Assembly (NCBI RefSeq): GCF_016862555.1 | Contig: NZ_BONE01000084.1 | Location: 1 to 34,769, forward strand | DNA: 34,769 nt | Origin: Asanoa siamensis | Lineage (GTDB): Bacteria; Actinomycetota; Actinomycetes; Mycobacteriales; Micromonosporaceae | Direction: 5' to 3' | Shown here: positions 6,607 to 23,511 of the stretch, one piece after another | Layout of the letters: every line of letters begins with the position of its first letter | How positions within the stretch are numbered: position 1 is the first letter of the stretch | Position numbers and translations under genes: made by a program | The notes under the pieces: generated by a model | Databases searched by the model: none | Told to the model about the DNA's origin: nothing | What the model saw: the letters and a program-made list of their open reading frames with translations, nothing else

Positions 6607-7947
6607 ATGAGTAACTATGGGCCGGTCGGCGTGGGAACGCTTCCAGGTGCTGAGGCCATTTTCGCTGGTACGAGCAAGTCGTGCACTCTCCGTATAAGAG
6701 AGCGCTCCCGACTGGAGTGGCGCTCTACGGACGGTGGCGATCCGGCTCAGCATCTCGAAGATTTCCTTGCGGCCGACGGACTGAACGTGCGGTCTTTCCT
6801 CACCTCCACACTGTCACGCTCCGTAGCCAAAAGCGAGGCCGGATCGGTCTGCGGTGCCGCCGTTCTGATCTCCGCGGCGGCCGGTGCGGCGATGCTTCGG
6901 CGGGCACCTGTGGGCAAGCCCACGCCGTCGCCCGCCGTGCCTGATTTGGTTGCCGTGGTATATGAGCACGTTGATACCACTGAGGCGCCATTTCGCCCGT
7001 TCGCGAGGGCGGGTCAACCCCTCCCGCGCGGTGACGCCGACCACATGGGCGGGGGGCGTCCCGGCTCCTCATCCCGGGTGGGCGGCCCACCAAATCAGTT
7101 ACGTTCCGGTCCACGTCGTGAGATGACCGCGGCGTGGCACCTGGGGGAGTGGACGCCGAGCTGGACCCCCGCCGCGCACGCGGAGGCGGTGTCAGCGGTC
7201 CGCGCGGCGATCGGCCGCGGGGACGTCTACCAGGTCAACGTGGTGGGGCACGCGTCGGCGCCGTACGTGGGTGACCCGCTGCCGGCGCTGGCCCGCCTGG
7301 GGGACCTGCCGGGCGCCCGCTACGGCGGGCTGCTGACGGGTGAGGGCTGGGCGGTGGGTTGCGCGTCGCCGGAGACCCTGGTCCAGGTCACCGGCGGCCG
7401 GGTGATCACCCGCCCGATCAAGGGCACCCGCCCTGCGACCGCGGCGGGCCGGCTCGAACTCCTGGACTCGGCGAAAGAGCGCGCCGAGCACGTGATGATC
7501 GTCGACCTGGAACGCAACGACCTGGCCCGGGTGGCCCGGACCGGCACCGTCCGGGTGGACGAGCTGTTCGCGATCCGCCGCTGGGTCGACCTGTGGCAGG
7601 CGGAGTCGGTGGTCTCGGCGGAGCTCGCGCCCGGGATCGGCCTGGCCGACCTGCTCCGCGCGACCTGCCCCGGCGGCTCGGTGACGGGCGCGCCGAAGCT
7701 GGCAGCCCTGAACCACATCGCCGCGCTCGAGCCGGTCGGCCGAGGCCCGAGCATGGGCGCCCTGGGCTGGATCGACGCGAGCGGCGACCTGGACCTGGGC
7801 CTGACGATCCGCACGGCAGCCGCGGACCGGGACCACCTCCACCTCTGGGCGGGCGGCGGCATCACCTGGGACAGCGACCCCGAGGCGGAGGTCGCGGAAG
7901 CGACGGCCAAAGCCGCCCCCATCCGACGCCTGCTCGCCTCGCCCTGA
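6607..7947 (+). CDS. pabB: aminodeoxychorismate synthase component I-like chorismate-binding enzyme
   Basis: Seen: the C-terminal part (from about 7123) is an intact chorismate-binding domain, with DVYQVNVVGHA, GCASPETLV, RPIKGTRP carrying the family lysine, HVMIVDLERNDLARV, CPGGSVTGAPK and LTIRTA. Established: such enzymes turn chorismate plus ammonia into 4-amino-4-deoxychorismate for folate. The N-terminal part also looks like PabB (RSRLEWRSTDGGDPAQHLEDFLAADG, broken here by no stop), so the frame is probably coding from near ATG 6607, giving 446 aa. However, 6607-7120 uses far more A/T-ending codons than its neighbours, includes a TTA leucine codon at 7099, and around 6990-7120 encodes a low-complexity stretch unlike PabB. 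Either the gene has a degenerate or recombined 5' third, or the functional product starts at ATG 7123. The upstream ribosome site is weak. No amidotransferase (PabA) gene is adjacent. Confidence 0.75.
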   Translation: MSNYGPVGVGTLPGAEAIFAGTSKSCTLRIRERSRLEWRSTDGGDPAQHLEDFLAADGLNVRSFLTSTLSRSVAKSEAGSVCGAAVLISAAAGAAMLRRAPVGKPTPSPAVPDLVAVVYEHVDTTEAPFRPFARAGQPLPRGDADHMGGGRPGSSSRVGGPPNQLRSGPRREMTAAWHLGEWTPSWTPAAHAEAVSAVRAAIGRGDVYQVNVVGHASAPYVGDPLPALARLGDLPGARYGGLLTGEGWAVGCASPETLVQVTGGRVITRPIKGTRPATAAGRLELLDSAKERAEHVMIVDLERNDLARVARTGTVRVDELFAIRRWVDLWQAESVVSAELAPGIGLADLLRATCPGGSVTGAPKLAALNHIAALEPVGRGPSMGALGWIDASGDLDLGLTIRTAAADRDHLHLWAGGGITWDSDPEAEVAEATAKAAPIRRLLASP

Positions 7948-8051
7948 CGTGCCGGCCGCAGGAGCAAGCACTCGAACAGCTCGCTGGCAGGGCCAACTCC
8001 GAATGGTCACTTTGCCCACATGGGTTTCTGGCGAGTGGAACCACGACGCGC

Positions 8052-10094
8052 TCATGCCGCGGGCTGGTCGAGACCTGACCGCAGCGCGTCAAGGCGTCTC
8101 CCGAGATCCGGGGCCGTAGCGCGGAGCAGCGTCAGGTCGGTGCGGGTGTCAAGCAACTGAGCCCAGCCGACCGCGCGGCCCTCCTCCAGCGCGACAACGG
8201 CGCCTCGCGGGTCGCCCGCGGCGATCGTGCAGGCACCGGCGTCGCGGGCCACACCGTCCGCGCGTACCAACTCGTCCTCGACGCTGTGGCGACTCAGTCC
8301 CCGCCACGCGGACAGCGGCAGCAGCCGTACCGCGGTGGCGAGCGCCTCGGCGGCCTCCGGCCAGCGTTCGAGCGACGCCGCGAAGTCACCCCACGTGTCG
8401 GCGCAGCGCAGGCGGATCGCAGCCGGCGCCGTTGGCGTCGCCGCACCTTCCCGCCAGGCCCGCGATGCCCGGTCAGCGTCGGCGGCCGTACCGGATTCGA
8501 GGAAGCGGGCCCGCACGGCGATCCCGAGGTTGGACAGGACGGTCGACCGGTCGGGATGGTTGGTGGGAAATTCCGCCACGACGGTTTCGGCCGTGGCGAT
8601 GACCGCGTCCAGGTCGTCCGGGTCGCCGGATTTCTCCGCCCGGCGAAGCAGCACACCCGCGAGGTTCGACAGGAAGCGCGCCCGGTGCGGATGGCCGACC
8701 GGTGCGGTGGACGCCGCCTCGCGTGCCGCCGCCAGCGCGCCGTCGAGATCATCCGGATCGCCGAAGGCGGCGCATCTCGCGTTCAGCGCGGTCGCGAGAT
8801 GCGTCAGGAACGTCGGCCGGCCCGGGTCACTAGCGTGCGCCGCGTCGAGGGCGGCCCGGCCGGTCTCGACCGCCGCGTCGACGTCGGCCCGGTCGCCCAG
8901 CCGATCGAACCGTCCCGCCAGCGCCGCCCCGAGGTAGGACAGCACCTGGCCCCGGTTGACGTGGCCGCGCGGCACCAGCTTCTCGGCGCCGCGGGCCGCC
9001 TCGACTGCGGCGTCGAGGTCAGCCCGGTCACCACGACCGCCGTAGCGGGTCTGCAGCATCACGGTGAGGTTCGACAGGTGTCCACCCAGGTCGGGATGGT
9101 CACCCGGGATGAGCCGCAACGTCTCGCGGACCGCGGCGACCGCCGCGTCCAGGTCGGCCGGATCGCCCCGTCGCCCGAACCTGACCTGCAGCGAGCCGCT
9201 GAGGTTTCCGAGGCACCGGACCCGACTCGGGTCTCCGGGCGGGCAGCGCTCCAGAGCCGCCCGGCCGACGACGACCGCCTCGTCGATGTCCGCGGGATCA
9301 CCGAAACGTTCGAACCGCATCCGGAGCGCGAGTCCTAGATTCGAGACGTGCTTCGCCCGCGCCGGATCGGCTGCGCGCATGCCGTCCACCGCGATCCGGG
9401 TCGTGTCCACGGCCTCGTTCAGGTCGGCGGGGTCACCGTCGCGGAGGTAGCGGGCCTGCAGCCGTGCGCCGAGGTTCGCCGCGTACATCGTCCGCTCCGG
9501 TCCGTCGGGTGTGCTGTCGACGGCGATCTGTCCGGCGAGGACAGCGTCATCCAGATCCTGCGGGTCGCCGCGGCGCTCGAAGCGCAGCCGCAGCGCCATG
9601 CCGAGGTTGTTGAGCACGTCACCACGGGGCGACCGGGCGATGTCGATCATCTGGAGCACCTGCCGGAACAGGCTGATCGCCCGGTCCAGCGCGGCCGGTT
9701 CGTCGCGAACCTCGCACCGCTCGAGGAGGTCGGTGGCCTCCTCGCACCAGTCGTCCAGGTCGGTGTCGGCGATCAGGATCTCGGGCACGAGCTCCGGCCA
9801 GTCCGCGCCGATCACCCGGAACAGCGGCACCGCGGTCTCGCGCTCCGCGTCGCCGACACCATCCGGCAGACTCCAGTAGCGGCACCAGTAGAACCAGGCC
9901 AGCGCCGCCATCGGAGCCACGTTCATGGTTCGCTTGCCGGCCTCGCCGACGTTGGCGGCGGCGTTCCACAGCGCGATGCCCTCGTCGGTGGCCTCCCGGC
10001 CGAGGAGATGGACCGGACTGCCGGTGATCGTGTAGAGGGTCACTCTGCGCCGGATCGATGCCAACAGGTCGTCCATCCCCGAGCCAGCGCTCAC
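8052..10094 (-). CDS. TPR protein B with orphan pre-CHAT segment
   Basis: Seen: 680 aa from GTG 10094, which overlaps the caspase stop codon by 4 bases (GTGA), so translation is coupled. After a helical N-terminal region of about 165 residues come about nine near-identical TPR-like units of 45-50 aa, each of the form LSNLGxALRxRFExxGDPADLDxAV. The final 45 or so residues (ALEEGRAVGWAQLLDTRTDL, then LRATAPDLGRRLDAL) are the segment that directly precedes the CHAT protease in fused TPR-CHAT proteins, yet the protein ends at DQPAA with no protease. No signal peptide, membrane segment or nucleotide-binding motif. Likely a cytoplasmic scaffold or sensor; by inference a partner or substrate of the CHAT or caspase encoded in the same operon. 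Last gene of that operon. Confidence 0.85.
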   Translation of the reverse strand: MSAGSGMDDLLASIRRRVTLYTITGSPVHLLGREATDEGIALWNAAANVGEAGKRTMNVAPMAALAWFYWCRYWSLPDGVGDAERETAVPLFRVIGADWPELVPEILIADTDLDDWCEEATDLLERCEVRDEPAALDRAISLFRQVLQMIDIARSPRGDVLNNLGMALRLRFERRGDPQDLDDAVLAGQIAVDSTPDGPERTMYAANLGARLQARYLRDGDPADLNEAVDTTRIAVDGMRAADPARAKHVSNLGLALRMRFERFGDPADIDEAVVVGRAALERCPPGDPSRVRCLGNLSGSLQVRFGRRGDPADLDAAVAAVRETLRLIPGDHPDLGGHLSNLTVMLQTRYGGRGDRADLDAAVEAARGAEKLVPRGHVNRGQVLSYLGAALAGRFDRLGDRADVDAAVETGRAALDAAHASDPGRPTFLTHLATALNARCAAFGDPDDLDGALAAAREAASTAPVGHPHRARFLSNLAGVLLRRAEKSGDPDDLDAVIATAETVVAEFPTNHPDRSTVLSNLGIAVRARFLESGTAADADRASRAWREGAATPTAPAAIRLRCADTWGDFAASLERWPEAAEALATAVRLLPLSAWRGLSRHSVEDELVRADGVARDAGACTIAAGDPRGAVVALEEGRAVGWAQLLDTRTDLTLLRATAPDLGRRLDALRSGLDQPAA

Positions 10095-12025
10095 GGGGCC
10101 GCCGCCGGTATCACTGTCCTGACCTCGGCGACGGTGACCGACCAGTCCAGTGCGGCCTGCGGTGCGACATCGAAGTCCCGGTGCACCGCGCGCAGGCCGA
10201 GCCGGCCGAGGATGCCGGTGATGCCACCGCCTCGGACCGCTCCACGCGGCACCTCGCCGAGCCGCGGCAACGCGAACGCGTCGGCGCTGAACTCCTTCTC
10301 CGCCACCAGGAGGACCAGCCAGTCGGTGCCGGCGGCGCCCGGTTGCCGGACCCGGTCCGGCGGCAGCGAGAGCACGATGGGCTCGGCGCCGCCGGCCTGG
10401 ACGGTGTGGCGCGCCGCGACGAACGCACCCTGGAAGAGGTCGGCATGCATGCGGTACCGGTCGGTCAGGTCGAGCAGCACGCAGAACAGCTTGCGGTCGG
10501 AGGTGTTGTGGAGGCGGACGAAGACCAGCGGTGGTTCCCATGCGGTGCCATTCCATGTGTACGCGAACTCGACCGGCCCGGCTGACGGAGACGGATCCGC
10601 TCCCGGTGCCGCCGACACGACCTCGATGCGTACCGCGTCCGCGAGGACCGGGGACGGATTGGCCAGGTTGCGCACCTGCAGCCAGCGCGCGATGTGCTCG
10701 AGGTCGCGCACCGTCCGCGTGATCGCCTGGTCGTCGACGCCGACCTTCGGGACCAAGGGTTCATGGTCGCTGCTCGTGATCTCCATCGTGCGGCCGTCCT
10801 CGGCCTGGGTGACCCGCAGCACGAGCCCGCCGGCCCGCTCGTCGCCGGGCGGGACGACGCGGAGGTGCGGCGACCGACGGCGAGCGGGACCGGCGGCATT
10901 CACCGCCGCGACGAGACGACGGGTGACGTCGTCGCGCGCGTGGATCACCACCGCGACCGGTGGCATAGGCATGTCGGTGAGCACCATCTCGTACTGCCGC
11001 TCGGTCTCCGGTGTCCAGCCGATCGGCTCGACGATGCCGCGCTCGGGGTGCACCTCGGCGACCCGAACCTCCCGTAGCGGATCAGTGCCGTGCACGGCGA
11101 GCCGCGACTCGGCGACGACGCCATGGATCGCTCCCAGGTCGACCTCCCACGCGCCGCGTAGGTGGCGCATGGTCACCTGGCCGGCCCGGGGGTGCATCGT
11201 CCCGCCGAGGAACTCCCGGTCGGCGTCGTCGCCGGCGGCCTCGATCGTCGGGACCTGGCGCCCGAAACGGCCCTCGACCCGGCAGCGGGCGTCGTGGAAC
11301 AACTGGCGGTAGGTCGCGTGGCGGCCGAGGCGCCCCAGAGCGTGGACGAGCGCCTCGCTGAACACTCCGTGCACGCCGTCGGTGAACAGGTCCTCGTTGG
11401 CCAGCTCCCACTCGTTGCAGGCCGACAGCGCCACATGCCGCGGTGCGTGGACACCGATCGCCGTGTTGCTTCCGCCGGCGACGTCACGGACCAGCTCGGG
11501 GAGCAGATCCGCTGGCGTCGGCTGCTCTTCGGCGGCGGGCGCGAGCCGGGGTGCGCGACCGGTGGGCGGGTCGCCGCGCAAACCGCTGCGCGAATGGCAC
11601 GAGTCCTGGATGGACACCAGGAGGGCGCCGTTCGCGACCACCTCCCGGACCAGCACCGCCAGTTCCTTGTCGTACAGGTCGGGTGCCCCGGCGCGGCTGT
11701 CGTGGCAGACGGTCGTCTGGCACATGCCGGAGTTCTCGGTGAATCGGAACTCGAACGGCAGCCGCCCGGTAGAGCCGTGCCCGCTGAACCAGAAGAGGGC
11801 GACGTCGTCCGGGCCGGCCGCACCGAGATGGCCGCGGAAGCCTTGGATGATCGCGGCCCGGGTGGCCTGCTCGTCACACAGTTTCATCACGAAGAGCTGG
11901 TCGGAGTCGATGCGGCCACGCAGCAGCCACTCGGCCAGCGTGACGTCGTTGACGCAGCCCTGCAGGTTCAGCGACGACGCACGGTACCGGTCGATGCCGA
12001 CCAGCAGGGCGTACACCTTGGGCAT
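10091..12025 (-). CDS. caspase-family (peptidase C14) protease with beta-rich C-terminal region
   Basis: Seen: 644 aa; ATG 12025 is preceded by GGAGGA at ideal spacing. Residues about 1-280 form a caspase/metacaspase fold: KVYALLVGIDRY at the first strand, the catalytic His in FWFSGHGS (H83) and the catalytic Cys in SIQDSCHS (C143), 60 residues apart, then HVALSACNEWELANE. Both catalytic residues are intact. The rest (about 290-644) has no helix repeats and looks beta-rich, with FVRLHNTSDRKLFCVLLDLT and DWLVLLVAEKEF, reminiscent of the DUF4384-like modules attached to bacterial caspases (tentative). Established: prokaryotic caspase-fold proteases are frequent effectors in conflict and cell-death systems. 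No membrane segment. The gene lies 19 bases after TPR A and overlaps TPR B, placing it inside the operon. Confidence 0.9.
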   Translation of the reverse strand: MPKVYALLVGIDRYRASSLNLQGCVNDVTLAEWLLRGRIDSDQLFVMKLCDEQATRAAIIQGFRGHLGAAGPDDVALFWFSGHGSTGRLPFEFRFTENSGMCQTTVCHDSRAGAPDLYDKELAVLVREVVANGALLVSIQDSCHSRSGLRGDPPTGRAPRLAPAAEEQPTPADLLPELVRDVAGGSNTAIGVHAPRHVALSACNEWELANEDLFTDGVHGVFSEALVHALGRLGRHATYRQLFHDARCRVEGRFGRQVPTIEAAGDDADREFLGGTMHPRAGQVTMRHLRGAWEVDLGAIHGVVAESRLAVHGTDPLREVRVAEVHPERGIVEPIGWTPETERQYEMVLTDMPMPPVAVVIHARDDVTRRLVAAVNAAGPARRRSPHLRVVPPGDERAGGLVLRVTQAEDGRTMEITSSDHEPLVPKVGVDDQAITRTVRDLEHIARWLQVRNLANPSPVLADAVRIEVVSAAPGADPSPSAGPVEFAYTWNGTAWEPPLVFVRLHNTSDRKLFCVLLDLTDRYRMHADLFQGAFVAARHTVQAGGAEPIVLSLPPDRVRQPGAAGTDWLVLLVAEKEFSADAFALPRLGEVPRGAVRGGGITGILGRLGLRAVHRDFDVAPQAALDWSVTVAEVRTVIPAAAP

Positions 12026-12044
12026 TCGTTCCTCCAGCGGCGGG

Positions 12045-14177
12045 TCACGTGGTGAGCGGACGGTCGAGGGCGGTGCCGATCGCGCGGAGCCGACCGGCGA
12101 GGGCCGCGTCGTGTTCGGCGAGCGCGTCGAAACGACGGTGCCCCAGTTGCTCGCGCCAGCCGACGCCGCGACCGGTTTCGAGAGCGCCGAGGGCGGCCGC
12201 CGGGTCGTGGCGCGCGAGCGCGGCCGCCGCGTCCAGCGCCAGGCTCGAGAACCGGGCCAGGGTGTACGGGCGATCCGCGGCGGTGGCGCCGAGCCAGGCG
12301 ATCCGCTCGGCCAGCTCGAGCGCGGTCCGCATGGCGGGTGCGCCGACGTCCGCCGCGCCACCGGCGGCCTGGACCTGCAGGTCGGCCAGCCGCCAGGCGG
12401 ACAGCAGCCGGTCCTGGCCGTTGGCGGCGGGGTCGTCGGCCACCTCCCGGGTCACGTCGATAGCCTCCGGCAGCGCCGCGTCGTCACCGGTGGCGATCAG
12501 CGCGTGGGCCAGATTGCCCAGCACGACGGCACGGTCCGGGTGCCCGGCGGGTAGGAGCCGCAGCGCGTCCCGGTGCGATGCCACTCCGGCGGTCGGGTCG
12601 CCGGCACTCGTCAGGGCGTTGCCGAGGTTGGAGAGGTACTTCGGCCGGGCGGGCGAATCGGGCCGTGTGTAGGCGACCGCCGCCTGTAGCACCGGCACCG
12701 CGTCGGCCGGGTCGCCGTTCCCGAGTTCGGCCAGGGACTGCAACGCGGCACCCAGGTTCGACAGATGCTGGGCCTGATCGGTCCGGGCCAGCTCGGCGGC
12801 CCGCCGCAGGACCCGCACGGCATCGTCGAGGTCACGCTGCGACCGTCGGCGCGTGCCCCGCAGCCGCAGCACGTTGCCGAGGTTGCTGAGCCGGCCCGGC
12901 AGCTCGGGGTCGCCGTCGACGGTTCCGTCGGCGCCGCCGCGGGCCGTTTCCACGGCCCTGTCGAGGTCGGCGCCGCGTCCGGTGCGCAGATAGCGGGTCA
13001 TCAGGATGCCGCTCAGGTTGCTCAGGGCGCCGGCATGGGCCGTCGTCCCGGGTGCGGCGGAATCCAGTGCCGTCGTCGCCGCCGCGGCGGCCTCGTCGAG
13101 CGTCACGATGCTGCTGGTGCGGGCAGCACGCAGGTGCAGCGCGGTCGCGAGGTTCGTGGCGTCCACGTCACGGGCGATCGCCACGGCCCGATCGAGGCGG
13201 GCGTCGTCGCCGGTCAGCTCCGCGAGACGGATCGTCACGGCGGAGAGGTTGACCAGGACCGCGCGTTCCGGCCGCAGCCGGGCCGCGGTGAGCAGCAGGG
13301 CCTCGGCCCGTTCGAGATCGGCCGGGTCGTCGTCGAGCTCCGCCCGGTACGACAGGGCGGAGGCGAGACCCGCCAAGCGGCGGGCCCGCATCGCGTGCTT
13401 TGGTGGTGTCGCGCGCACCGCGTGGCCGAGCGCCTGCAGGGCTTCAGCGGGTTCGTCGCCGGTCGCCTGGGCCTGGCTCAGCAGCACTCCACCCAGAACG
13501 GCCAGAATCGTGGGGGAGGGGTTCTGCTCGGCGGCTGCCCGTCCGAGTTCGGCGGCGCGGTCGATATCGGCCCGCTCGTAGGTGTGGCTGAACCGGGTGC
13601 GCAGCGCGTCGGCCAGGTTGGCCCGGTAGGTGGGCAGGCGGGGATCATCCGCCGACGCGGTGTCGAGGCCGGCGTCGATGGCGGCGATACCGCGGTCGAG
13701 ATCGTCCTCGCTGCTCCGGGCCCGGGCCCGGGCTCTGGCGACGAGAGCGGCGCCCAGGTTCGACAGGTACGCGGACCGCGGCGGCTCCTCGGCGCCCGTC
13801 AGTTCCACGGCCTCGGTGAAAGCCGCGACCACTTCGTCGAGATCGGCCTCGTCGCCCCCGACCAGCAGGGTGTTGCCGAGGTTGGCCAGGCACAGCGCCC
13901 GGTCCGGCGAGTCGACCGAGAGGGCGGCATGCAGCAGCGCGACGGCCGTGGTGCGGCCGTCCGGGCGGCGGCCCTGTTCCCATTGCCGTCGGACGACCGA
14001 GCCGAGCGTCGCCAGCGTACGCGGCCTGATCGGGTCGGCCGGCCCGAGAGCGTCGAGCAGGGCGCGCAGCGCCGCTTCGGCGGCGTCGAGGTCGGTGGCC
14101 GAGCCGGTGCGGTCCGCGGCGGCGGTCCGCCGGGCCACGGCGGCGATCAGCTCGGCGCGTGACGGCCGCTCCGTCAT
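12045..14177 (-). CDS. TPR protein A with orphan pre-CHAT segment
   Basis: Seen: 710 aa; ATG 14177 overlaps the CHAT gene's stop codon (ATGA), implying coupled synthesis of the two. Roughly a dozen TPR-like units run through the protein (LANLGNTLL, YLSNLGAALVARARAR, LSNLGNVLRLRG, LSNLGAALQSLAELG and so on), more diverged from one another than in TPR B. The C-terminus (GALETGRGVGWREQLGHRRF, then LAGRLRAIGTALDRP) is again the segment that normally leads into CHAT, and the protein stops five residues after its start of LDRP. The gene immediately upstream encodes a CHAT protease beginning at the point where the fused protein would continue. I infer that TPR A and CHAT are two halves of a split TPR-CHAT protein in reversed gene order, acting as a complex. 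Confidence 0.87.
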   Translation of the reverse strand: MTERPSRAELIAAVARRTAAADRTGSATDLDAAEAALRALLDALGPADPIRPRTLATLGSVVRRQWEQGRRPDGRTTAVALLHAALSVDSPDRALCLANLGNTLLVGGDEADLDEVVAAFTEAVELTGAEEPPRSAYLSNLGAALVARARARARSSEDDLDRGIAAIDAGLDTASADDPRLPTYRANLADALRTRFSHTYERADIDRAAELGRAAAEQNPSPTILAVLGGVLLSQAQATGDEPAEALQALGHAVRATPPKHAMRARRLAGLASALSYRAELDDDPADLERAEALLLTAARLRPERAVLVNLSAVTIRLAELTGDDARLDRAVAIARDVDATNLATALHLRAARTSSIVTLDEAAAAATTALDSAAPGTTAHAGALSNLSGILMTRYLRTGRGADLDRAVETARGGADGTVDGDPELPGRLSNLGNVLRLRGTRRRSQRDLDDAVRVLRRAAELARTDQAQHLSNLGAALQSLAELGNGDPADAVPVLQAAVAYTRPDSPARPKYLSNLGNALTSAGDPTAGVASHRDALRLLPAGHPDRAVVLGNLAHALIATGDDAALPEAIDVTREVADDPAANGQDRLLSAWRLADLQVQAAGGAADVGAPAMRTALELAERIAWLGATAADRPYTLARFSSLALDAAAALARHDPAAALGALETGRGVGWREQLGHRRFDALAEHDAALAGRLRAIGTALDRPLTT

Positions 14178-15397
14178 GGGCCCGTGTGGGTGAAGGGCGT
14201 CCAGACACTGGGCGCGTTGCGGTGGCGGTCGCGCAATGCTCGCGTCGCGTGGTGCAGCGCCGCCGCGGCCTCGTCCGCGTGCAGCACACCGTCGCGCACG
14301 ATCGCGCCGTACACGTTGTCGGCGACCTCCGCCGCCTCGTCATCCCAGACCGACCACAGTGTCGCGATGACGTGCCGATAGCCGGTGTAGTGCAACGCCG
14401 CCGCCAGGGTGATCGCCTCATCAGGGAGATTCGCCCCGCCGACGGCGGTCTTGCAGCCGGACAGGAAGGCGAACTCTCCCTGGTACTGCTGGGAGCTCAG
14501 ATCGGCCACGGTGAGCTGACCGTCGTGGACGAGCACGCCGCCGCGCGACGGGTCGGCGAGATCCTGCTCGCCGTGGCAGGCGAAGTGCGCCCACCTGTGG
14601 TTCACCAGACCCGCCAGTACGGCGTCGCGGGTGGCCCGTTCGCCGATCAGTTCCGTACAGGCGCCGTCGAACCTCTCGTGCAGCAGGTCCCGCTCGGTGT
14701 CGACGTTCGGCAGCGGTGCCTGGCCGGGCGTGTCGGGCATGCCGACGAAGAGCATCCGGCCCGGTGCCCCGCCTTGCTCCCGCGGTTCGGCGCGGGCCGC
14801 CACCAGCGCACGCAGGGTAGGCGTGTAGGAGGACACGGCCCGGTCGAGGACGGACCGGCCGGGGCTGCGGTGGTAACCGGCCGCGTGTATCGGCAGCAGC
14901 GTCAACGGCCCGGTCGGACACCACCAGATCCGCCGCCCGCCGCCTTTGTTGTGTTCGAGCCTGTCGAGGATCCGCTCGGCGAACGCGTCCCACATCCATT
15001 GCAGACAGCGGTCCAGGGCCGCCTCGACGGTATCGGACGACACGGTCGCGTCCATGTCCCGCCGGGTGCCTCGCAGTGTCGCCACCTGCCGGGTCGTGAC
15101 CGCGTCCAGGTAGGCCTGGACCTGGTCCACGACGGTGTCCTGCCGCAGCTCGGGAAGCTCGACGACGTCGACGCCGCCGGGTGTGACGATCAGAGCGTCG
15201 CACCGCCATCGGCTGACGTTGACGATGATGACGGGTCCGCCCTTGGCCGCGGGCAGGAGCGTCTCCAGCCGTGGCGGCTGCAGGAAGTCCTCGAACCCTT
15301 CGATCGCGCGGACCTGCTCCACGAGCTCGTCCCACTCGCGGGCCAGGGCCATGCGGCGATCGACGTCGTGGCCGAACTGATCGGATCCGCCGGGCAT
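14174..15397 (-). CDS. stand-alone CHAT-domain protease
   Basis: Seen: 407 aa from ATG 15397 (GAGG five bases upstream; GTG 15400 would add one residue). The N-terminus ALAREWDELVEQVRAIEGFE is the helical entry to CHAT in fused proteins. The domain continues VIIVNVSRWRCDALIV, ending with the catalytic pair: His in AHFACHGEQ (H275) and Cys in FLSGCKTAV (C315), 40 residues apart, both intact. HVIATLWSVWDDEAAEVA is the usual C-terminal core. There are no TPRs, which is unusual because CHAT is normally fused to them. Established: CHAT is a caspase-like cysteine protease clan member; TPR-CHAT (Csx29) is the protease of type III-E CRISPR Craspase. First gene of the minus operon, divergent from TPR C. 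Confidence 0.93.
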   Translation of the reverse strand: MPGGSDQFGHDVDRRMALAREWDELVEQVRAIEGFEDFLQPPRLETLLPAAKGGPVIIVNVSRWRCDALIVTPGGVDVVELPELRQDTVVDQVQAYLDAVTTRQVATLRGTRRDMDATVSSDTVEAALDRCLQWMWDAFAERILDRLEHNKGGGRRIWWCPTGPLTLLPIHAAGYHRSPGRSVLDRAVSSYTPTLRALVAARAEPREQGGAPGRMLFVGMPDTPGQAPLPNVDTERDLLHERFDGACTELIGERATRDAVLAGLVNHRWAHFACHGEQDLADPSRGGVLVHDGQLTVADLSSQQYQGEFAFLSGCKTAVGGANLPDEAITLAAALHYTGYRHVIATLWSVWDDEAAEVADNVYGAIVRDGVLHADEAAAALHHATRALRDRHRNAPSVWTPFTHTGP

Positions 15398-15400
15398 CAC

Positions 15401-15604
15401 GACCTCATCACATCAGGCCCAGATCCAGGTCGGAACCCGCGCGATCGCCGCACGCCGAGCATCGTGGTCAGGGGATCGGACATGACGCCCTGGCCCCGAG
15501 CTCCTACCCATGCCGATAACTGACGGACAGCGCCGTCGAACGGCAAGCTGGCGGTCGACCGGTGCGGACCAGGGGCGACGTTATCCTGCGTTTGCCCATG
15601 CCGC
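15401..15604 (+). promoter_or_regulatory. divergent control region of the protease locus
   Basis: About 200 bases separate the CHAT and TPR C start codons, which are read in opposite directions, so both operon promoters must lie here or inside the first codons. On the plus strand TATCCT at 15582-15587 fits a -10 element with a very short leader to the TPR C start; no convincing -35 was seen. On the minus strand I found no clear promoter. No extended dyad was recognised. Confidence 0.4.
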
Positions 15605-18565
15605 ATGGAGGAGATGGTGTTGCCGCTGGATCCGCTCGACGCCTCGGTCCGTGGGCTGCCGATGACCAAGGAGCCGGCGACCTTCGACGAGGGTCTACGA
15701 CTTTTGCGCGTTGCCGTCCGGCACACCCCCGCGGATGACGCGGCGTATCCCACCCGGCTGCTGAACCTCGGTGCGGCGGTCATGGACCGTTGGGAACGTG
15801 ATCATGCTCAGGCGGACATCGACGAGGCCGTCGCGTTGTTCCAGGAGGGCGCCGCGGCGGACGCCGACGTGACGGCGTCATGCCTTGTGAACCTGTGCCA
15901 CGCACTACGGATGCGGTATCGGCTGACCGGCTCGCCATCGGATCTGGACGCGGCGGTCGCCGCCGGTGCCGGCTGTCTCGACCTCACCGCGCACGACTAC
16001 GACGGCCGGCCGGACCGGATCGAACAGGCCGCGCACGCCCTGCGGGAACGCTACGAGCGTGCCCACGACGTCGCCGACCTCACAGCCGCGGTGAATCTGT
16101 ACCGGGCGGCGGCCGAACAGAGCGCTCCACCCGACCTGACCGCGTTTAGCGGTCGGCCGCTCGTCCACCTGCGCAACTACGCCCTGTCGACCCGGGAGCT
16201 CTTCACCGTCACTGGCGACACCGGGTCGAGAGCGGCCGCGATGATGACAGCGTTCCGGATCGCCGGTGACCCGGCCGCGGCCGGAGCCGTGCAGTGGGCG
16301 GCACGTCTGACGGAAGACAGCACGGACCCGGAGGAGCTGGACGCGGCTGCGGCGGCGTTGCGGGTCGCTGCCGCGGTGTCCGCAGCAGCGGACGCGGACA
16401 GCCTCCGGCTGGATCTCGTCGCGGCACTGCGGAGGCGCGCGAGACTCACCGGTCGGACCGACGATGCGGAAGCGGCGATCCTCGCGGCGCACGACGCTGT
16501 CGACCTCGCCCAGACCGACGGGCGCGGACTCGCTCTCGGCGCGTTGGGCAATACGCAGCTCACCTGCTGGACCCGCATCGGCCAGCCCGCGTATTTGGAC
16601 GATGCCGTCGGGAACTTGCGCCGGGCCGACGCCGCGGCGGGTGGCACCGACCCCGTGCCGCTCACGAACCTGTCGGTTGCCCTGCTGGAGCGCCACGAGC
16701 TCTTCGAAGATCCCGCCGACCTCAGCGAGGCGGTCAGGGCGGCCCAGCGAGGGGTCGCCGCCGCCGATCCCTCCGACGACGACCTCATCGGATACTCCGC
16801 GAACCTCGCGCACACCCTGCAGGTGCGCTACGACTGGTTCGGTCGCCCCGACGACATCGACGAGGCGATCGTCGTTCTCCGCGACGCGGTGGACGGCGCC
16901 GATCGACAGACCCTGTCCGTGGCCAAAGCCGAGGCCAACCTGGGCATCCTGCACCGGGCGCGGTTCCGACGCAGCCGCCGGCCAGACGACCTGGCCGAGG
17001 CCGTGCGCTACGCGCGGTTGGCCCTGGCGTCGTTCCTTGAGCTACCAGGCACCGAGGACCACGCGGGCGCCGAGATGCTCAATCTGGCGATGGCGCTTCG
17101 TGAGCGCGCCCGGTTCGAGGGCCGGCCCGACGATCTCGACGAGGCGGCAGACCTCGCCGTGCGAGGGGTGCCTCTGCTCGCCAGCGCCGAGTACCCCCGC
17201 CGAGGGCTGGCCGCCTCGATCCTCGTCGACCGGTTTCGGCGCGACGGGCGGGACGAGGACGCAGGAACCGCGATCGGGTACCTGGACGGCCTGGCCGGCA
17301 ACCCGATCGTGTCGACAGCCGCCCGGGTCGACGCGGCGAGCCTGTCGGGCCGGCTGGCTGAGGACATCGGTGACAAGGCCGCAGCCACCACCGCGTTCGG
17401 TGTGGCGGTGGACGTGCTAGCCCGGCTCCCGTTCCGCGGCACGACCCGTCGCACGCGCGAACGCTCACTGGCAGTGGCCGCTGGGCTGGCCGGCGACGCC
17501 GCCGCGGCTGCGATCGACGTCGGCGACGCGGATGTCGCCGTGGACCGGTTGGAGCGTGGGCGCGGCGTGCTGTGGGCACAGCACCTGGAGCTGCGCGGGG
17601 ACCTGAGCCGGCTGGCCGCGCGGGAGCCGGTTCTCGCGGCGCGGATCGAGACGGTAGCCCGGCAGTTGTCCGACCGCGCCATGGACTACCTCGACCCCGT
17701 CGACACGTCCGCCCGGGGGCCGGTGCTCGAACTGATCAGCGAGGCCCTGAGGCGGGCCAGCGACGACATCGAGCGGGCCGTGGATCAGTCGCGGGCCGCG
17801 CTCGAGGCCGCACCGCCCGACCTGCGGGCGCACGCCTCCAGCATGCTGGGCTTCGTGCTGGGGGAGCGCTACCGCAAGCGACATGACCGGGCCGACATTG
17901 ACGGGGCGGTCGCGGCCGCCTTCGACGCCGTCCGGGACGCACCCGTCGGCGGAGCCGGCCGGTACTGGTCGCAATACGGCGAGACGCTGCTCGACCGCTT
18001 CTACGCCGCCCAGCGCGACGGCGATCCGGGCGCCGCAGACCTCGACTCGGCGATCCGGGCGCTGCGGCATGCCGTGACCGCCGGGCGCAGCCCGCGGGAC
18101 CGGGCGGACGATCTTGCCGTGCTCGCCACAGCCTGGGACCGCAAAGCTGACGGCCCGGCCGATCCGGCAGCGCTGTCGGCCGCCGTCGAGGCATGGCGCG
18201 CCGCCGTGCGGGCCGGCGCGCGCGATGACGCCGAACGGGCGGAGCGGACGGCATCGCTAGCCCTGGCGCTGCTGCGGCGCTGCGACCACACCGGCGACCC
18301 CGCCGACCTGGACGAGGCGGTCGGACTCTGGGACCACGCCCTAGCCGTTGGTGGTGACGACGACGATCGGGCCGAGTGGCATATGTGGCGGTCCATCGCG
18401 CTTCGCGCCCGCTGGCGGGCCGACGGCGAACCGGCCGACCTCGACGCGGCCGAAGCGGCCGGCCGCCTCGCGATCGAGCACGCCGCCGCCCTCGACGAGG
18501 AGACCCGGACGATGGTGCGAACAGCCCTGGACGAATCGGCCCGGTTCGGGCGCGCCGCACGCTGA
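15605..18565 (+). CDS. TPR protein C with internal pre-CHAT segment
   Basis: Seen: 986 aa of TPR-like units resembling those of A and B (LVNLCHALRMRYRLTGSPSD, LTNLSVALLERHELFEDPAD, SANLAHTLQVRYDWFGRPDD). Around residues 640-690 sits a pre-CHAT segment (ERGRGVLWAQHLELRGDLSR, then AARIETVARQLSDRAMD), but what follows is a second block of TPR-like units to the end, not a protease. No membrane segment or NTPase motif. The start is ambiguous: GGAGGAG lies at 15608-15614, inside the first codons of the ATG at 15605, so the true start may be GTG 15617, TTG 15620 or ATG 15662. Downstream TPR-CHAT follows after 24 bases. I infer a regulator or scaffold of the locus that kept the CHAT-docking segment; it could equally be a proteolysis substrate. 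Confidence 0.85.
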   Translation: MEEMVLPLDPLDASVRGLPMTKEPATFDEGLRLLRVAVRHTPADDAAYPTRLLNLGAAVMDRWERDHAQADIDEAVALFQEGAAADADVTASCLVNLCHALRMRYRLTGSPSDLDAAVAAGAGCLDLTAHDYDGRPDRIEQAAHALRERYERAHDVADLTAAVNLYRAAAEQSAPPDLTAFSGRPLVHLRNYALSTRELFTVTGDTGSRAAAMMTAFRIAGDPAAAGAVQWAARLTEDSTDPEELDAAAAALRVAAAVSAAADADSLRLDLVAALRRRARLTGRTDDAEAAILAAHDAVDLAQTDGRGLALGALGNTQLTCWTRIGQPAYLDDAVGNLRRADAAAGGTDPVPLTNLSVALLERHELFEDPADLSEAVRAAQRGVAAADPSDDDLIGYSANLAHTLQVRYDWFGRPDDIDEAIVVLRDAVDGADRQTLSVAKAEANLGILHRARFRRSRRPDDLAEAVRYARLALASFLELPGTEDHAGAEMLNLAMALRERARFEGRPDDLDEAADLAVRGVPLLASAEYPRRGLAASILVDRFRRDGRDEDAGTAIGYLDGLAGNPIVSTAARVDAASLSGRLAEDIGDKAAATTAFGVAVDVLARLPFRGTTRRTRERSLAVAAGLAGDAAAAAIDVGDADVAVDRLERGRGVLWAQHLELRGDLSRLAAREPVLAARIETVARQLSDRAMDYLDPVDTSARGPVLELISEALRRASDDIERAVDQSRAALEAAPPDLRAHASSMLGFVLGERYRKRHDRADIDGAVAAAFDAVRDAPVGGAGRYWSQYGETLLDRFYAAQRDGDPGAADLDSAIRALRHAVTAGRSPRDRADDLAVLATAWDRKADGPADPAALSAAVEAWRAAVRAGARDDAERAERTASLALALLRRCDHTGDPADLDEAVGLWDHALAVGGDDDDRAEWHMWRSIALRARWRADGEPADLDAAEAAGRLAIEHAAALDEETRTMVRTALDESARFGRAAR

Positions 18566-18589
18566 ATTTTCCTGAGTAGTGTCCGTCAG

Positions 18590-21500
18590 GTGAACGGTGT
18601 GAGTTCAGGTGCCGCGGCGTTGTGGGATCGCCTGAGGCGCGAATCGGAAGTGTTGATCGCGGCCTCGGATCAGGCTGCCGCAGGACGGGCACTGGCCTGG
18701 TTCCACCGGGAGTTGCCGGCCCTACTCGCGGCGCTGCGCTCGGCAGATGATGAGCAGCCGTCAGTGGTGCTGAGCGCCGCCTACGACATGTTGCCGTTCC
18801 TCACAGCCACATCAGACTGGCAAACGGTCGCCGAGGTAAGTCGGATCGGCCTCGCGGCGGCCAATCAGCTCGAAACCGCCCGGCCGGCGCTGGAACTGAT
18901 GCATATCCTCGGCGTCGCCTACCAGTACCTGAATGACGACGAGCGCGCTCAGGAGATCTTCACCTCTGTCGTCGGGCTGGCGGATGAGCTCGGCGACGAT
19001 GTGCTGCGGGCGAAGGGGCTGGCGCACCTCGCGCAGCTTCAGCGCCACGCCGGGGACGCCGGTGCCGCCGTGACGATGTTGCACGAGGCGGTGGTGGCGT
19101 ATGCCCGGGCCGGAGACCGGCTCGGTGAAGCCCGCGCCCTCGGTGACCTCGCGACGACGTCGATCGACCTCGGTGACCGCGACGGCGCGCTCGGCTACGC
19201 GGAACGCGCCCGCGCCATCTTCCAGGATCTCGGCGACGCTGAGGGGCAGGGGCGGATCCTGCGGTTCCTGGCAATCGAAGCGCACAAGGTCGGCAACGTC
19301 GACGCGGCGCTCGACCTGGCGGAGCAGGCGGTGCGGCAGTTCGAGTTGGCATCCGCGACCGCCCTGGCCGCGGAAACCGAAATGTTCGCGGCCCGTACGC
19401 ACCGGGCGAACGGTGACGTGGCCCAGGCTGTTGAGCTGGCCCGGCGTGCGGCGCGGCGCGCTCCGGCGGAGCGGCAGCCTGACGACGACCTCTTCCTGCA
19501 ACTGGTGGAGGCCGAGTGGGCGATGCGCGAGCTGCTCCAGGCCGACAGCGACGCCGCCCGCGAAGCGGTGCTGGCGAGGCACCCCGCGCTCCTCGGAGAA
19601 GTCACCGCCCGGATCGCCGCTCATGTCGAGCTGCTCTCCGCGGCGCCGGACGAGAAGGCCCGGGCCAACGCCGCGGCTGGCATCGCCTGGTTGCTGGCAC
19701 ACCCTGACGGCGCGGCCGCCGGCTGGTACGCCGAGGAGTGGGACACCATCCTTCGCTACGCCGGAGCTGGCGACCTTCCGGCAGGACTCGAGGAACAGGT
19801 CCGCCGGTTGGTCGTCAGCCAGGGCGCAGACCATCGCGCGGCCCTGGACAACATCATCGCGATGCTGACAGGCGAGGAACGTGCCGCGGTACGCGGTTGG
19901 TACCTGCTCCAACTGGCCCGACTCGACATGGACGAGTCCGACCGCCCACGGGCCCAGAAGAACGCCGGCGCGGCGGCCGAACTGCTGGCCCGCGCGGGAG
20001 CGAACGACGAAGCAGCCGAGGCCTATGTCCTCGAAGGTGCGGCGTGGCGCCAGGATCGGTCCGGCGACCTGCGCGGCAACAGCGACCGCGCACTTCGTGC
20101 GCTGCGGCAGGCGCTACGTCTGTACCGCCGCTCCACCCACCCGGATGAGTGGGCCAAGACCATCAGCAATCTCGGCAACGTGTACTGGCAGTATCCGGAC
20201 GACCGGCGGCGTAACCTCGCTCGCGCCGTCGCCCGGCACACCGCCGCGTTGACGGTGCTCACCCCCGACCGGCACCGCACGGACTGGGCGACGGCGCACG
20301 CCAACCTGGGGCTGGTGCTGTCCGAATCAGTCCTGGCCGATGACCCGGACAACCTCGAGCGAGGCCGCGTCCATCTCAGCCGGGCACTTGACGGGCTCGA
20401 TGCGGCCCGATCCCGGGCGGTGGTGCTGCTCAACCTCAGCCGCTGTTACCGGCTGCGTAAATCCGGTGACCACGAGGCGAACGCCCACCTGGCGCTGCGA
20501 CACGCGCGGGAGGCGTACGACATGTTCGAAGGCTTCGGTACGCCGGTCGACCTCGCCGACGCCGCCAGAGCGGTGGCCGACTCGCTGAGCATGCTCAGGA
20601 CACACAGCGACGCGGTGACTGAGGCGATCGAGTGGTACCACCGCGCCCTCGCGATGGTGCCGCCGGACCATTTTCCGCGCGACCACGCCGCCCTCGCGGG
20701 CAACCTGGCGAACACGCTTGTCTCCCTGGCGGAGCCGACCGACGATCAGCTCGGTGAGGCCATCGCCTTGCAGCGCACCGCCGTCGACCTCTACGGACGC
20801 AGCAACGATCCGTGGGAGCAGGCCCGCGCCCGCTACAACCTGGCGACGACGCTGCTGGAATCGCAGCAGCAACCAGATCTCGACGAGGTGCTCGACCTGC
20901 ACGAGCGCAGCCTCGCGGTGTTCCAGGTCGAGCGCGGGTCGCGCGAGTGGACCGAGTCCGCCACCGCGTTCGCCTCGACCTTGCTGCTGCGGGGCCATGA
21001 TCAGGACCAGGCGCAGGCAGTACGCCTCCTGCGAGAGGTGACGGCATCCACCGCCCTGGCGGGAGCACCGCACCAGGCGGCGCACGTCTGGAGCCTGCTC
21101 GGCGAGGTGCACGCGCGGGATGGGGACTGGACCGCGGCCGCGCAGGCGTTGCGGCACGCCGTCGACGCGGCCGAGTCGAGGTACGCGGCTGCCGTCCTCG
21201 CCATGTCCCGCGTCGCCGAACTGGAGCGCCTGGGCGGCCTGCCGCGGTTCGCCGCCTACGCGCTGGCGCGCGCCGGTGACCCGAAGGGGGCTGTCGCGCT
21301 GCTCGAATCCGCCCGTGCGCGTGAGCTCGGCCGGCTCTTCGACCGCGATCACCTGGACCTTTCTGTCGTCGACCGGCTGGCCCCCGACGCCGCGGCCGCG
21401 TACCGGGAGGCGAGTCAGCGTATTGCCGCACTGGAGGCCCGCCAGCGGGCCGCACCGCAGCCCAGCCGGGAGGACTCGCAGCAGATCCACGCCGCCCTCA

Positions 21501-22681
21501 CCGACGCCTACGCGCAACTGCGCTCAGCGACCGAGACGGTCCGGCGTGTGCCGGGCGCCAGCGTCGGTCTCGGCCGAGCGGCGGCCGAGACCGTGGAGCA
21601 GGCGGTAGCGGCTGGCTGCCCGCTGGCGTATCTGGTGACCACCGGCCATGGCAGCGTCATTCTGCTCGCCGGCGCCGACCCGTCCGGCACGGTCGAGGCG
21701 TTGTACTGCTCGTTGACCGAGCAGGAACTGGTCGACACCGTGCTGCACGCGGGCGCGCAGCACTCGCCCGCGGTCCTCGACCTGATCGGTGACGGGTTCA
21801 TGGGCGACCTCGCGCATCGGCTCACGGAGCTTGGCCACTCGCGGGTCGTACTGATTCCGACCGGGGTGCTGGGCATCGTGCCGCTGCACGCCGCCCGGTA
21901 TCGCCGCGACGGGCAACTGGTTCACCTGGTGGACGAGGTCGCTCCGTCCTATGCCCCGTCCGCGCGGGTCCTGCTGGCCGCCCACGGGGTCCCGGTGGCC
22001 GCGCAGGACGAGTTGCGACTGGTCGCCGTGGCCGATCCCGTGCCGGACGCCGCCCCGCTGCCGTGGGCGCGGGAGGAGGTCGCGACGCTCGAGCGGATCT
22101 TCCCCGGGCCGACCAGATCCATGACGGGGAGCGCCGCGACAAAACCGGCACTCCTGGCCGCGCTGCCCGGGAGGACGCACGTTCACCTCGCCTGCCACGG
22201 CGCGTACGACGCGGACGAGCCCATGCGCTCCTCTCTGCAACTTGCCCGCGACGAGCGGCTGACGTTGCGAGAGCTCTTCGACGGCAAGCGGCTTGCCGGC
22301 GTGCAGCTCGTCGTGGCATCGGCGTGCCAGAGCGCCGTCACCGACGTGCTGCGGGCGCAGGACGAGGCGACGGGGTTGCCCGCGGGGCTGGCGTACGCGG
22401 GCGCGCGCACCATCATCGGCACGTTGTGGGCGGTCGAGGACAGGTCGGCGGAGCTGCTGGTCAGCCGGTTCTACGTGAACCACCTGCTCGGCGATCCGGA
22501 CGACGACGGTGGGGGACCGATGCCCCCGGCCAGCGCCCTGGCCAGAGCACAGCAGTGGCTGCGCGACGCCGCACCCGCGGACGTTCAACAGTTCACCCGC
22601 GACCTCGCTGTTACGCCGGCGGCCGGCGGGTTCACGGACCCAGCGCACTGGGCGGCGTTCGTCGTCCATGGAGCCGCGTGA
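18590..22681 (+). CDS. large TPR-CHAT fusion protease
   Basis: Seen: 1363 aa. Residues about 60-300 are canonical 34-residue TPRs (ALELMHILGVAYQYLNDDER, KGLAHLAQLQRHAGDAGAAV). A middle section with longer units (HANLGLVLSESVLADDPDNL) reaches about 880, then a pre-CHAT helical linker (ALLESARARELGRLFDRDHL). CHAT starts near residue 1000 (CPLAYLVTTGHGSVILLAG), with the catalytic His in HLACHGAYD (H1203) and Cys in VVASACQSA (C1246), 43 apart and intact. TIIGTLWAVEDRSAELLVSRFYVNHL closes the core in two adjoining pieces. It has no STAND or other NTPase module between the TPRs and the protease. A GTG at 18599 has the better ribosome site (AGGTGA) and may be the real start. Second gene of the plus operon. 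By inference TPRs sense a partner and release the protease. Confidence 0.93.
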   Translation: MNGVSSGAAALWDRLRRESEVLIAASDQAAAGRALAWFHRELPALLAALRSADDEQPSVVLSAAYDMLPFLTATSDWQTVAEVSRIGLAAANQLETARPALELMHILGVAYQYLNDDERAQEIFTSVVGLADELGDDVLRAKGLAHLAQLQRHAGDAGAAVTMLHEAVVAYARAGDRLGEARALGDLATTSIDLGDRDGALGYAERARAIFQDLGDAEGQGRILRFLAIEAHKVGNVDAALDLAEQAVRQFELASATALAAETEMFAARTHRANGDVAQAVELARRAARRAPAERQPDDDLFLQLVEAEWAMRELLQADSDAAREAVLARHPALLGEVTARIAAHVELLSAAPDEKARANAAAGIAWLLAHPDGAAAGWYAEEWDTILRYAGAGDLPAGLEEQVRRLVVSQGADHRAALDNIIAMLTGEERAAVRGWYLLQLARLDMDESDRPRAQKNAGAAAELLARAGANDEAAEAYVLEGAAWRQDRSGDLRGNSDRALRALRQALRLYRRSTHPDEWAKTISNLGNVYWQYPDDRRRNLARAVARHTAALTVLTPDRHRTDWATAHANLGLVLSESVLADDPDNLERGRVHLSRALDGLDAARSRAVVLLNLSRCYRLRKSGDHEANAHLALRHAREAYDMFEGFGTPVDLADAARAVADSLSMLRTHSDAVTEAIEWYHRALAMVPPDHFPRDHAALAGNLANTLVSLAEPTDDQLGEAIALQRTAVDLYGRSNDPWEQARARYNLATTLLESQQQPDLDEVLDLHERSLAVFQVERGSREWTESATAFASTLLLRGHDQDQAQAVRLLREVTASTALAGAPHQAAHVWSLLGEVHARDGDWTAAAQALRHAVDAAESRYAAAVLAMSRVAELERLGGLPRFAAYALARAGDPKGAVALLESARARELGRLFDRDHLDLSVVDRLAPDAAAAYREASQRIAALEARQRAAPQPSREDSQQIHAALTDAYAQLRSATETVRRVPGASVGLGRAAAETVEQAVAAGCPLAYLVTTGHGSVILLAGADPSGTVEALYCSLTEQELVDTVLHAGAQHSPAVLDLIGDGFMGDLAHRLTELGHSRVVLIPTGVLGIVPLHAARYRRDGQLVHLVDEVAPSYAPSARVLLAAHGVPVAAQDELRLVAVADPVPDAAPLPWAREEVATLERIFPGPTRSMTGSAATKPALLAALPGRTHVHLACHGAYDADEPMRSSLQLARDERLTLRELFDGKRLAGVQLVVASACQSAVTDVLRAQDEATGLPAGLAYAGARTIIGTLWAVEDRSAELLVSRFYVNHLLGDPDDDGGGPMPPASALARAQQWLRDAAPADVQQFTRDLAVTPAAGGFTDPAHWAAFVVHGAA

Positions 22682-22787
22682 CGGGCCAGCCAGGTCCGTC
22701 CGCAGGGCCAGCAGCACTGGCGTCCGTCCTTTCGACGATGCCGCGGCCCGCGGGTGCGACGACGCAGCAGAAGCCCTCGGCACGATT

Positions 22788-22815
22788 CATCCTAGGATGC
22801 CTACCGGGTGTGCCC
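22788..22815. repeat. CTAG-centred palindromic motif, copy 1
   Basis: CATCCTAGGATG is a perfect 12-bp palindrome at 22788-22799, followed by CCTACCGGGTGTGCCC. The right-hand block GGGTGTGCC is shared with copy 4 and, more loosely, copy 3. Confidence 0.55.
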
Positions 22816-23175
22816 GGCTACCGCACCCACTACGAACACCGGCAGCAAAGACTCACGCGCTGGCCCGGGCGCGGCGGGCCGGTACGAGTGCGAGCGGCCG
22901 GACGACGGCGCGCCGCCCGACCCCGAATCCGGTCGGGGGTTCGCTCAGCCGAACGGACGGGGCCAGGTCGCCGGCCACCGCTATCGCGGCTGGGCTCGCG
23001 GTGGTGGCCGCACAGAGGTCAAGACCCAGCCTCCGAGGCGGGTCCACGACGGCTCGGACCGAGAGGCCGCGGACACTGTGGCGAGGGGCGCCAAGCTGGG
23101 ATGCGGGCGGCGGCGTCCCCGGCCGGCGAGGCCGAGATGGCGGGGGGAGGGGTTTTCTTCTTGCTCAAGCCGTCT

Positions 23176-23203
23176 CGTCCTAGGACGCCGCAGAGGGCGC
23201 CCC
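23176..23203. repeat. CTAG-centred palindromic motif, copy 2
   Basis: CGTCCTAGGACG, a perfect 12-bp palindrome at 23176-23187, followed by a diverged right-hand block GCAGAGGGCGCCCCC. Confidence 0.55.
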
Positions 23204-23350
23204 CAGGGGTGGAATTCGGACTCATGCTGCCGCGCGTACCCGGCTCGTCGACGGTTTCGAACGATCCCAGGCGGTCGGGTCCGGCGGCGTGGCGGCTCGC
23301 CGGCCGCTGGCTTGCCGCACGTCTCTGGTTCTGCGGCTGCCTGCCGGCCC

Positions 23351-23407
23351 GGGCGTCTGGCTGACGATGCGGGCGTCCGGCTGACGGCGTAGTTACCGGA
23401 CGCCCGC
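23351..23407. repeat. 20-bp tandem repeat running into a 12-bp hairpin
   Basis: Two 20-base units beginning GGGCGTC(T/C)GGCTGACG at 23351 and 23371 agree at 16 of 20 positions. The second unit also forms the left arm of a perfect stem: GCGGGCGTCCGG at 23369-23380 pairs with CCGGACGCCCGC at 23396-23407 across a 15-base loop. GGCTGACG at 23379-23386 can alternatively pair with CGTCAGCC at 23410-23417, so two mutually exclusive folds exist. Possibly a terminator for TPR-CHAT read-through, but there is no T tract. Confidence 0.5.
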
Positions 23408-23467
23408 GACGTCAGCCGCCCCAGCGACCGCAAGCGCCACCGGCCGGCGGCCGCCTGACAGCGCGTC

Positions 23468-23485: not shown

Positions 23486-23511
23486 CGGCCCCACCCGCGG
23501 CCTACCCGCAT

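Follow-up and report, generated by a model that had tools for sequence, protein, structure and literature searches.

In type III CRISPR systems, a SAVED-CHAT protein acts in cascade with a caspase-type protease, and, to our knowledge, proteins combining tetratricopeptide repeats (TPR) with a CHAT protease are known only as single chains. A 34,769-nucleotide stretch of the genome of the soil bacterium Asanoa siamensis (NZ_BONE01000084.1, hereafter the window; contig C84 of the 8.78-Mb genome) contains a locus in which a free CHAT protease, CHAT1, is encoded in one operon with a caspase and two TPR proteins, TPR A and TPR B. A divergent pair of genes encodes a third TPR protein, TPR C, and a fused TPR-CHAT protein. 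We propose a split TPR-CHAT protease, joined to a caspase, as the product of the leftward operon, a reading to which we assign a probability of about one half.

The locus shares features with several described systems. In the alignment of CHAT1 with chains of Csx29, the His, the Cys, and the Glu located two residues after the His are all kept; the accessible part of PMC10028731 gives catalytic roles for Csx29 residues H615, C658, and E617. The likeness to Craspase (CASP, the type III-E system of Csx29) extends to a TPR part as regulator, but here TPR and CHAT are encoded by separate genes and joined to a caspase. CHAT1 (45.7 bits) and TPR-CHAT (33.8 bits) remain below the cut-off of 300 of the Csx29 model and are not members of that family. 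The Pfam scan of window genes detected no Cas gene, Cas7-11 included, and the 20 repeat families inspected, of at least 60 within the window, showed no CRISPR-like array. A CHAT protease beside a caspase-type protease, with a possible relay between them, is reminiscent of the SAVED-CHAT system, but Pfam recognised neither a SAVED domain nor CRISPR genes in the six proteins, which have putative TPR sensors instead; the SAVED-CHAT protein itself is described in the accessible part of PMC11417357. A fungal TPR-bearing CHAT protease that activates gasdermin also combines TPR and CHAT as a receptor protease, but, according to the accessible part of PMC12881547, within a single chain and not as separate genes. 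Gasdermin had no match among the window proteins scanned (all but some right-flank genes). The caspase conflict systems of Kaur et al. (EACC1, EACC2, VMAP), which occur mostly in multicellular bacteria according to the accessible parts of PMC7159879 and PMC8195603, likewise have a caspase as the common element with varying partners, but no EACC1, MoxR, vWA, or STAND part was recognised by Pfam in the six proteins, and the EACC1-type caspase model yields 18.7 bits against a cut-off of 140. An earlier note on this DNA knew of no named system of this composition, and we found none in the open-access literature, PADLOC, or NCBIfam. Judged by titles and the opening parts of abstracts, none of the open-access papers returned by the searches describes a free CHAT served by separate TPR proteins or this operon.

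The locus consists of four leftward genes (the quartet) and two rightward genes; the pre-CHAT linker is a stretch that directly precedes CHAT in fused relatives.

14174..15397, minus strand: CHAT1, free CHAT protease of 407 residues; dyad H275/C315; Pfam CHAT 140 bits; copies 79% and 70% identical in the other two quartets
12045..14177, minus strand: TPR A, 710 residues; predicted TPR superhelix ending in the pre-CHAT linker; structure model with a pLDDT (predicted local distance difference test) of 85.6; conserved in both other quartets
12060..12260, minus strand: pre-CHAT linker of TPR A, residues 640-706 of 710; linker profile 31 bits
10091..12025, minus strand: caspase, 644 residues; dyad H83/C143; Pfam C14 55 bits; C-terminal extension of about 370 residues; model close to metacaspases
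8052..10094, minus strand: TPR B, 680 residues, in the exchangeable fourth slot; 78% identical in Dactylosporangium vinaceum, replaced in Pseudonocardia oroxyli; lone 71% copy in genome G237
8064..8258, minus strand: pre-CHAT linker of TPR B, residues 613-677 of 680; linker profile 64 bits
15605..18565, plus strand: TPR C, 986 residues, with an internal linker; aligns to TPR A and TPR B; 54% orthologue in genome G071, away from the G071 caspase
17462..17704, plus strand: linker inside TPR C, residues 620-700 of 986; linker profile 64 bits
18590..22681, plus strand: TPR-CHAT, fused, 1363 residues; dyad H1203/C1246; Pfam CHAT 161 bits; other CHAT lineage, on a far tree branch

The six genes were called from translations and a codon-model gene finder, with starts uncertain by a few codons; TPR-CHAT may alternatively start at 18650. 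Translation, the gene finder, and Pfam confirmed the six products and coordinates given in the earlier note, and its three His/Cys dyads are all present. Its two 4-base overlaps, between CHAT1 and TPR A and between the caspase and TPR B, were recovered together with the 19-base gap from TPR A to the caspase; the rightward genes do start divergently, and the gap, put at about 200 bases, measures 207. The scans returned no promoter-like site (0.4 expected) and two terminator-like sites (2.4 expected) and are thus uninformative. An additional leftward gene at 7192-8055, overlapping TPR B, was rejected, since the codon model did not select it and the stretch runs antisense to the pabB-like gene.

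CHAT1 and TPR-CHAT both exceed the Pfam CHAT cut-off of 24 bits and carry the dyad, which identifies them as CHAT proteases. The caspase (Pfam C14 cut-off, 21.4 bits) combines the caspase fold with the His/Cys dyad and an Asp before the Cys, as in a metacaspase-like p20 domain. All aligned caspases share residues H83, D141, and C143 (24 of 24 and 33 of 33). The search with the structure model returned plant metacaspases as the nearest solved folds and weak beta-sandwich matches for the C-terminal region. Among the six proteins, the Pfam TPR model is above its cut-off in TPR-CHAT only. The model of TPR A, calculated from a three-sequence alignment, is a TPR superhelix over approximately residues 1-604, with matches to TPR proteins such as O-GlcNAc transferase; both TPR B and TPR C align to TPR A. 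The linker of TPR A is kept across the three copies, and the pLDDT over residues 601-710 is 37-69. Such a poor single-chain prediction could be expected if the linker needs a partner, and the shallow alignment is another possible cause. Residues 385-420 of TPR B match an NCBIfam three-helix-bundle dimerization model at 34.7 bits (cut-off 25), possibly a chance match to a repeat unit.

Two fused relatives contain the separate parts in one chain. A protein of 989 residues aligns to residues 7-679 of TPR B and then to residues 9-407 of CHAT1, and one of 1073 residues aligns to residues 120-676 of TPR B and then to residues 3-407 of CHAT1. The linker profile was built from the stretch directly before CHAT in six fused proteins. 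TPR A and TPR B end right after the linker, and the linker of TPR C is internal. The profile matched 49 of 1554 predicted proteins, 41 of which are without CHAT. The gene finder had been trained on the window, which is high in GC, and it fails where GC is low, several of L143-L168 having no call (G, C, and L handles denote genomes, contigs, and loci). CHAT-less linker proteins, one to four at each locus, are present in 18 of the 20 free-CHAT1 loci versus 6 of 89 other loci (Fisher p 1.3e-13; the loci are not fully independent). Of these six, L090 and L088 repeat the D. vinaceum locus L039, L259 is TPR C of G071, and L219 has a CHAT1 that the gene finder missed. In the two exceptions among the free-CHAT1 loci, G211 and G095, a genome search placed an open frame with the linker no more than 12 kb from CHAT1. 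The tree of 29 CHAT sequences, in which 8 of 26 inner branches are drawn open, places the fused members among the free ones and the two CHATs of the window far apart; the free or fused state requires three changes (shuffled mean 8.0). The locus thus holds a free CHAT and CHAT-less TPR proteins with the pre-CHAT linker. Since TPR A, TPR B, and TPR C carry the linker that precedes CHAT in fused proteins and CHAT1 is free, the locus is predicted from sequence to encode a split TPR-CHAT, in which CHAT1 is the putative catalytic half missing from TPR A and TPR B. The earlier note did not recognise this resemblance of the TPR proteins to TPR-CHAT front halves that have become detached.

What is conserved as a unit is the leftward operon, CHAT1-TPR A-caspase-TPR. 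We annotated 40 regions around caspase matches of the family and 80 loci of a caspase scan of named genomes. The four-gene order was found in two of the 80 named loci, those of D. vinaceum and P. oroxyli, and therefore occurs in three genera including Asanoa. The D. vinaceum proteins (L090, the same place as L039) are 79, 76, 74, and 78% identical to those of the window, and another linker TPR gene lies upstream of the quartet in addition to a divergent one. In P. oroxyli (L094), the identities are 70, 58, and 54% for CHAT1, TPR A, and the caspase; the fourth slot is occupied by a different TPR protein (33% over 549 residues), and the 4-base overlaps are kept at CHAT1/TPR A and caspase/TPR. 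CHAT1 adjoins the caspase in G071, without TPR A. The observation is beyond chance, because the four-gene order recurs in two other genera. The earlier note had allowed that homologues of the six genes might never co-occur, but four of the six do so in these two genera; gene order is conserved for the leftward operon, and no such conservation was seen for the rightward pair.

The earlier note read all six genes as one self-contained proteolytic cascade. The comparison with other genomes does not support the six genes as a single conserved unit. The divergent layout around one shared 207-base gap and the linker of the CHAT1 lineage within TPR C agree with such a cascade, as do two of the four genomes with a relative of TPR-CHAT, which encode a fused CHAT1-type protein (G226) or a CHAT-less linker protein (G248) within about 8 kb of it. 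However, TPR C has one clear orthologue (54%, G071) among 249 other genomes of the family, and it is located at a distance from both caspase and CHAT. Matches to the N-terminal part of TPR-CHAT are present in four of these 249 genomes, and in none of the four is a TPR C orthologue beside the TPR-CHAT relative. Orthologues of the two genes were not found together elsewhere, nor beside the caspase, and both other quartets are without the rightward pair in the regions read. Together with the far-apart branches of the two CHATs, this makes one cascade of all six genes very unlikely, and the rightward TPR-CHAT is probably a neighbour rather than a core part, although, given the proteins near its relatives in G226 and G248, it may have some link to the quartet.

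Based on the conserved quartet and the shared linker, a mechanism can be proposed. CHAT1 would be the catalytic subunit, and TPR A, the TPR protein of the fourth slot (here TPR B), and perhaps TPR C would be sensor or adaptor subunits that grip CHAT1 in trans via the pre-CHAT linker. A trigger bound by the TPR solenoid may reshape the active site of CHAT1, comparable to the effect of target RNA in Csx29. CHAT1 would then cut and activate the neighbouring caspase, or both proteases may act in parallel; the order from CHAT to caspase is suggested by analogy. The activated caspase may stop or kill the cell, probably against phage or other invaders.

Several observations weigh against this split protease joined to a caspase. 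The quartet caspase is present in the region of 4 of the 20 free-CHAT1 loci (the window, D. vinaceum, G071, and P. oroxyli); most free-CHAT1 loci are without this caspase, and therefore CHAT1 must have other outputs there. The gap between the caspase and the next TPR gene in D. vinaceum is about 376 bases. The quartet is rare, because TPR A has no match at E<=1e-40 in 393 other genomes of the class. The genes flanking the insertion that holds the locus are housekeeping genes. The whole-genome search for the linker covered 20 genomes that were all chosen for free CHAT1, with at most 150 candidates scored per genome, and 42 of its 93 matches are far from any listed CHAT, so that a nearby partner is not implied.

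The distant matches, as well as the position of the TPR C linker in mid-protein, would also fit a linker that simply caps the C-terminus in one family of TPR proteins; TPR A, TPR B, and TPR C would then be scaffolds that do not bind CHAT1, and their neighbourhood would be due to shared island ancestry. We consider this explanation unlikely, since the linker directly precedes CHAT in the fused relatives, has no match to its profile in the window's own TPR-CHAT of the other lineage, and is strongly associated locally with free CHAT1. Furthermore, in the search for TPR C in 250 genomes, all seven other identified genomes with CHAT-less matches among the best three candidates per genome have free CHAT1 (G042, G061, G071, G095, G140, G209, and G237; the row G121:C8 is unclassified).

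The 93 linker matches consist of 14 fused to CHAT, 37 CHAT-less within 12 kb of free CHAT1, and 42 CHAT-less elsewhere, as judged by frame length. One match each in G114, G205, and G211 is in a frame other than the CHAT frame and was counted as CHAT-less, a few of the 93 are in short or antisense frames, and distances were taken from 84 of the CHAT matches listed, with weaker ones left out. The three matches in the genome of A. siamensis are all within the locus. Three genomes, G209, G237, and G071, together hold 33 of the 42 distant CHAT-less matches. G209 has 17 linker matches, 16 of them in frames of at least 550 residues and none fused, and one free CHAT1 match at E<=1e-60 among the 5 of 20 candidates scored. 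The 20 distant regions examined (15 from G209, three from G237, and two from G071) contain 21 linker genes, all of which end 1-23 residues past the linker; none of these regions was found to contain a CHAT. The median identity of 15 G209 linker proteins is 31% (105 pairs). The lone TPR B copy of G237 is full-length, 71% identical, and 45 kb from the nearest CHAT listed. DUF4132 proteins adjoin lone linker TPR genes in two G209 regions (L275, L287), and a same-sized neighbour lies beside a lone linker TPR gene in G237 (L290). Scattered CHAT-less linker genes together with one free CHAT1 are the pattern expected of a shared catalytic subunit with exchangeable sensors. We tentatively suggest a receptor repertoire, in which one shared CHAT protease is served in trans by diverged TPR sensors. 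All sensors would have one kind of docking linker in common, placed terminally or nearly so, and would be encoded by single genes scattered over the genome, and the operon of the window would be the version feeding the shared protease into a caspase.

The locus is part of an accessory island. A caspase match is present in 59 of 250 genomes of the family, the genome of A. siamensis included, but all five of its congeners are without one. Both flanks, the pabB-like gene to about 7940 and the right side from about 25355, are conserved in all five congeners. They share one contig in four of the five, with 0.9 kb (G072), 2.1 kb (G101), or about 4.4 kb (G018 and G088) between them, and are on different contigs in G052. 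Because the congener flanks adjoin with only 0.9-4.4 kb between them, 7941-25354 is a 17.4-kb insertion at a variable spot. The locus is thus not conserved in all relatives beside housekeeping genes, an outcome that the earlier note had also considered.

7941..25354, no strand: insertion holding the locus, between the pabB-like gene and a gene conserved in congeners; flanks matched in four congeners
23626..24807, minus strand: anti-sigma-like gene inside the insertion; no Pfam match; labelled by position and one hydrophobic stretch
24804..25313, minus strand: extracytoplasmic function (ECF) sigma gene inside the insertion; sigma-70 regions in 24804-25361

Other genes occupy the insertion spot in G018 (L238) and G088 (L239). 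One of those in G018 encodes a protein of the PNP superfamily with additional matches to PADLOC effector models; for the four remaining proteins tested from the spot in these two genomes, neither Pfam nor PADLOC returned a match. No tRNA was found within the window. Phage or plasmid origin was rejected. Among 50,697 phage records, the caspase has a single match, which covers 23% of its length at below 60% identity. Among 72,556 plasmid records, 91 match the caspase and 64 match CHAT1, all below 60% identity.

There is a 4-base overlap between the ECF sigma and anti-sigma-like genes, the products of which are a possible substrate of the proteases. The presence of both genes within the insertion would fit a signalling or developmental relay instead of defence, in which cleavage of the anti-sigma-like protein by CHAT1 or TPR-CHAT would release the ECF sigma factor, as in Csx29/Csx30. 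CASP and CalpL/T/S provide precedents, according to the accessible parts of PMC10028731 and PMC11417357. However, four congeners contain, elsewhere in the genome and without this locus, a stretch of 73-75% similarity that spans the sigma gene and much of the anti-sigma-like gene. Moreover, no such pair was seen among the partly identified neighbours of the D. vinaceum and P. oroxyli quartets. We regard such a relay as quite unlikely.

The pairing of caspase and CHAT is a general feature: a match to a CHAT query, mostly a fused TPR-CHAT, is also present in at least 37 of the 80 named caspase loci (20 of 39 and 17 of 41). Other neighbours of the caspase were observed as well. A protein of about 420 residues without a Pfam match, which looks like a nucleotide cyclase when judged by eye, is encoded in 17 family regions (L046-L078), often by a gene overlapping that of the caspase by 4 bases, and CRP-type regulators occur in seven of the family caspase regions. 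It is possible that regions with cyclase-like and CRP-type proteins represent a nucleotide-signal version of the caspase system; the operon of the window contains neither. A conserved set of proteins of about 590, 180, and 520 residues adjoins caspase-CHAT genes in L048, L049, L051, L053, L054, L056, and L057, and its member of about 520 residues is an AAA ATPase matching the PADLOC IetA models. The genome of A. siamensis contains a second cluster of about 21 kb (G000:C17, approximately 32600-53500; L079 and L080) with a cyclase-like protein, a CRP-like protein, an ATPase, a caspase-type protein, and three CHAT matches.

If many separately encoded TPR sensors do share one protease subunit, bacteria would possess a repertoire of receptors with a single caspase-clan protease as their signalling route, in a logic akin to that of animal immune receptors with one common adaptor. 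The quartet would also be a small CHAT-to-caspase relay that operates without CRISPR, STAND, or an evident nucleotide signal.

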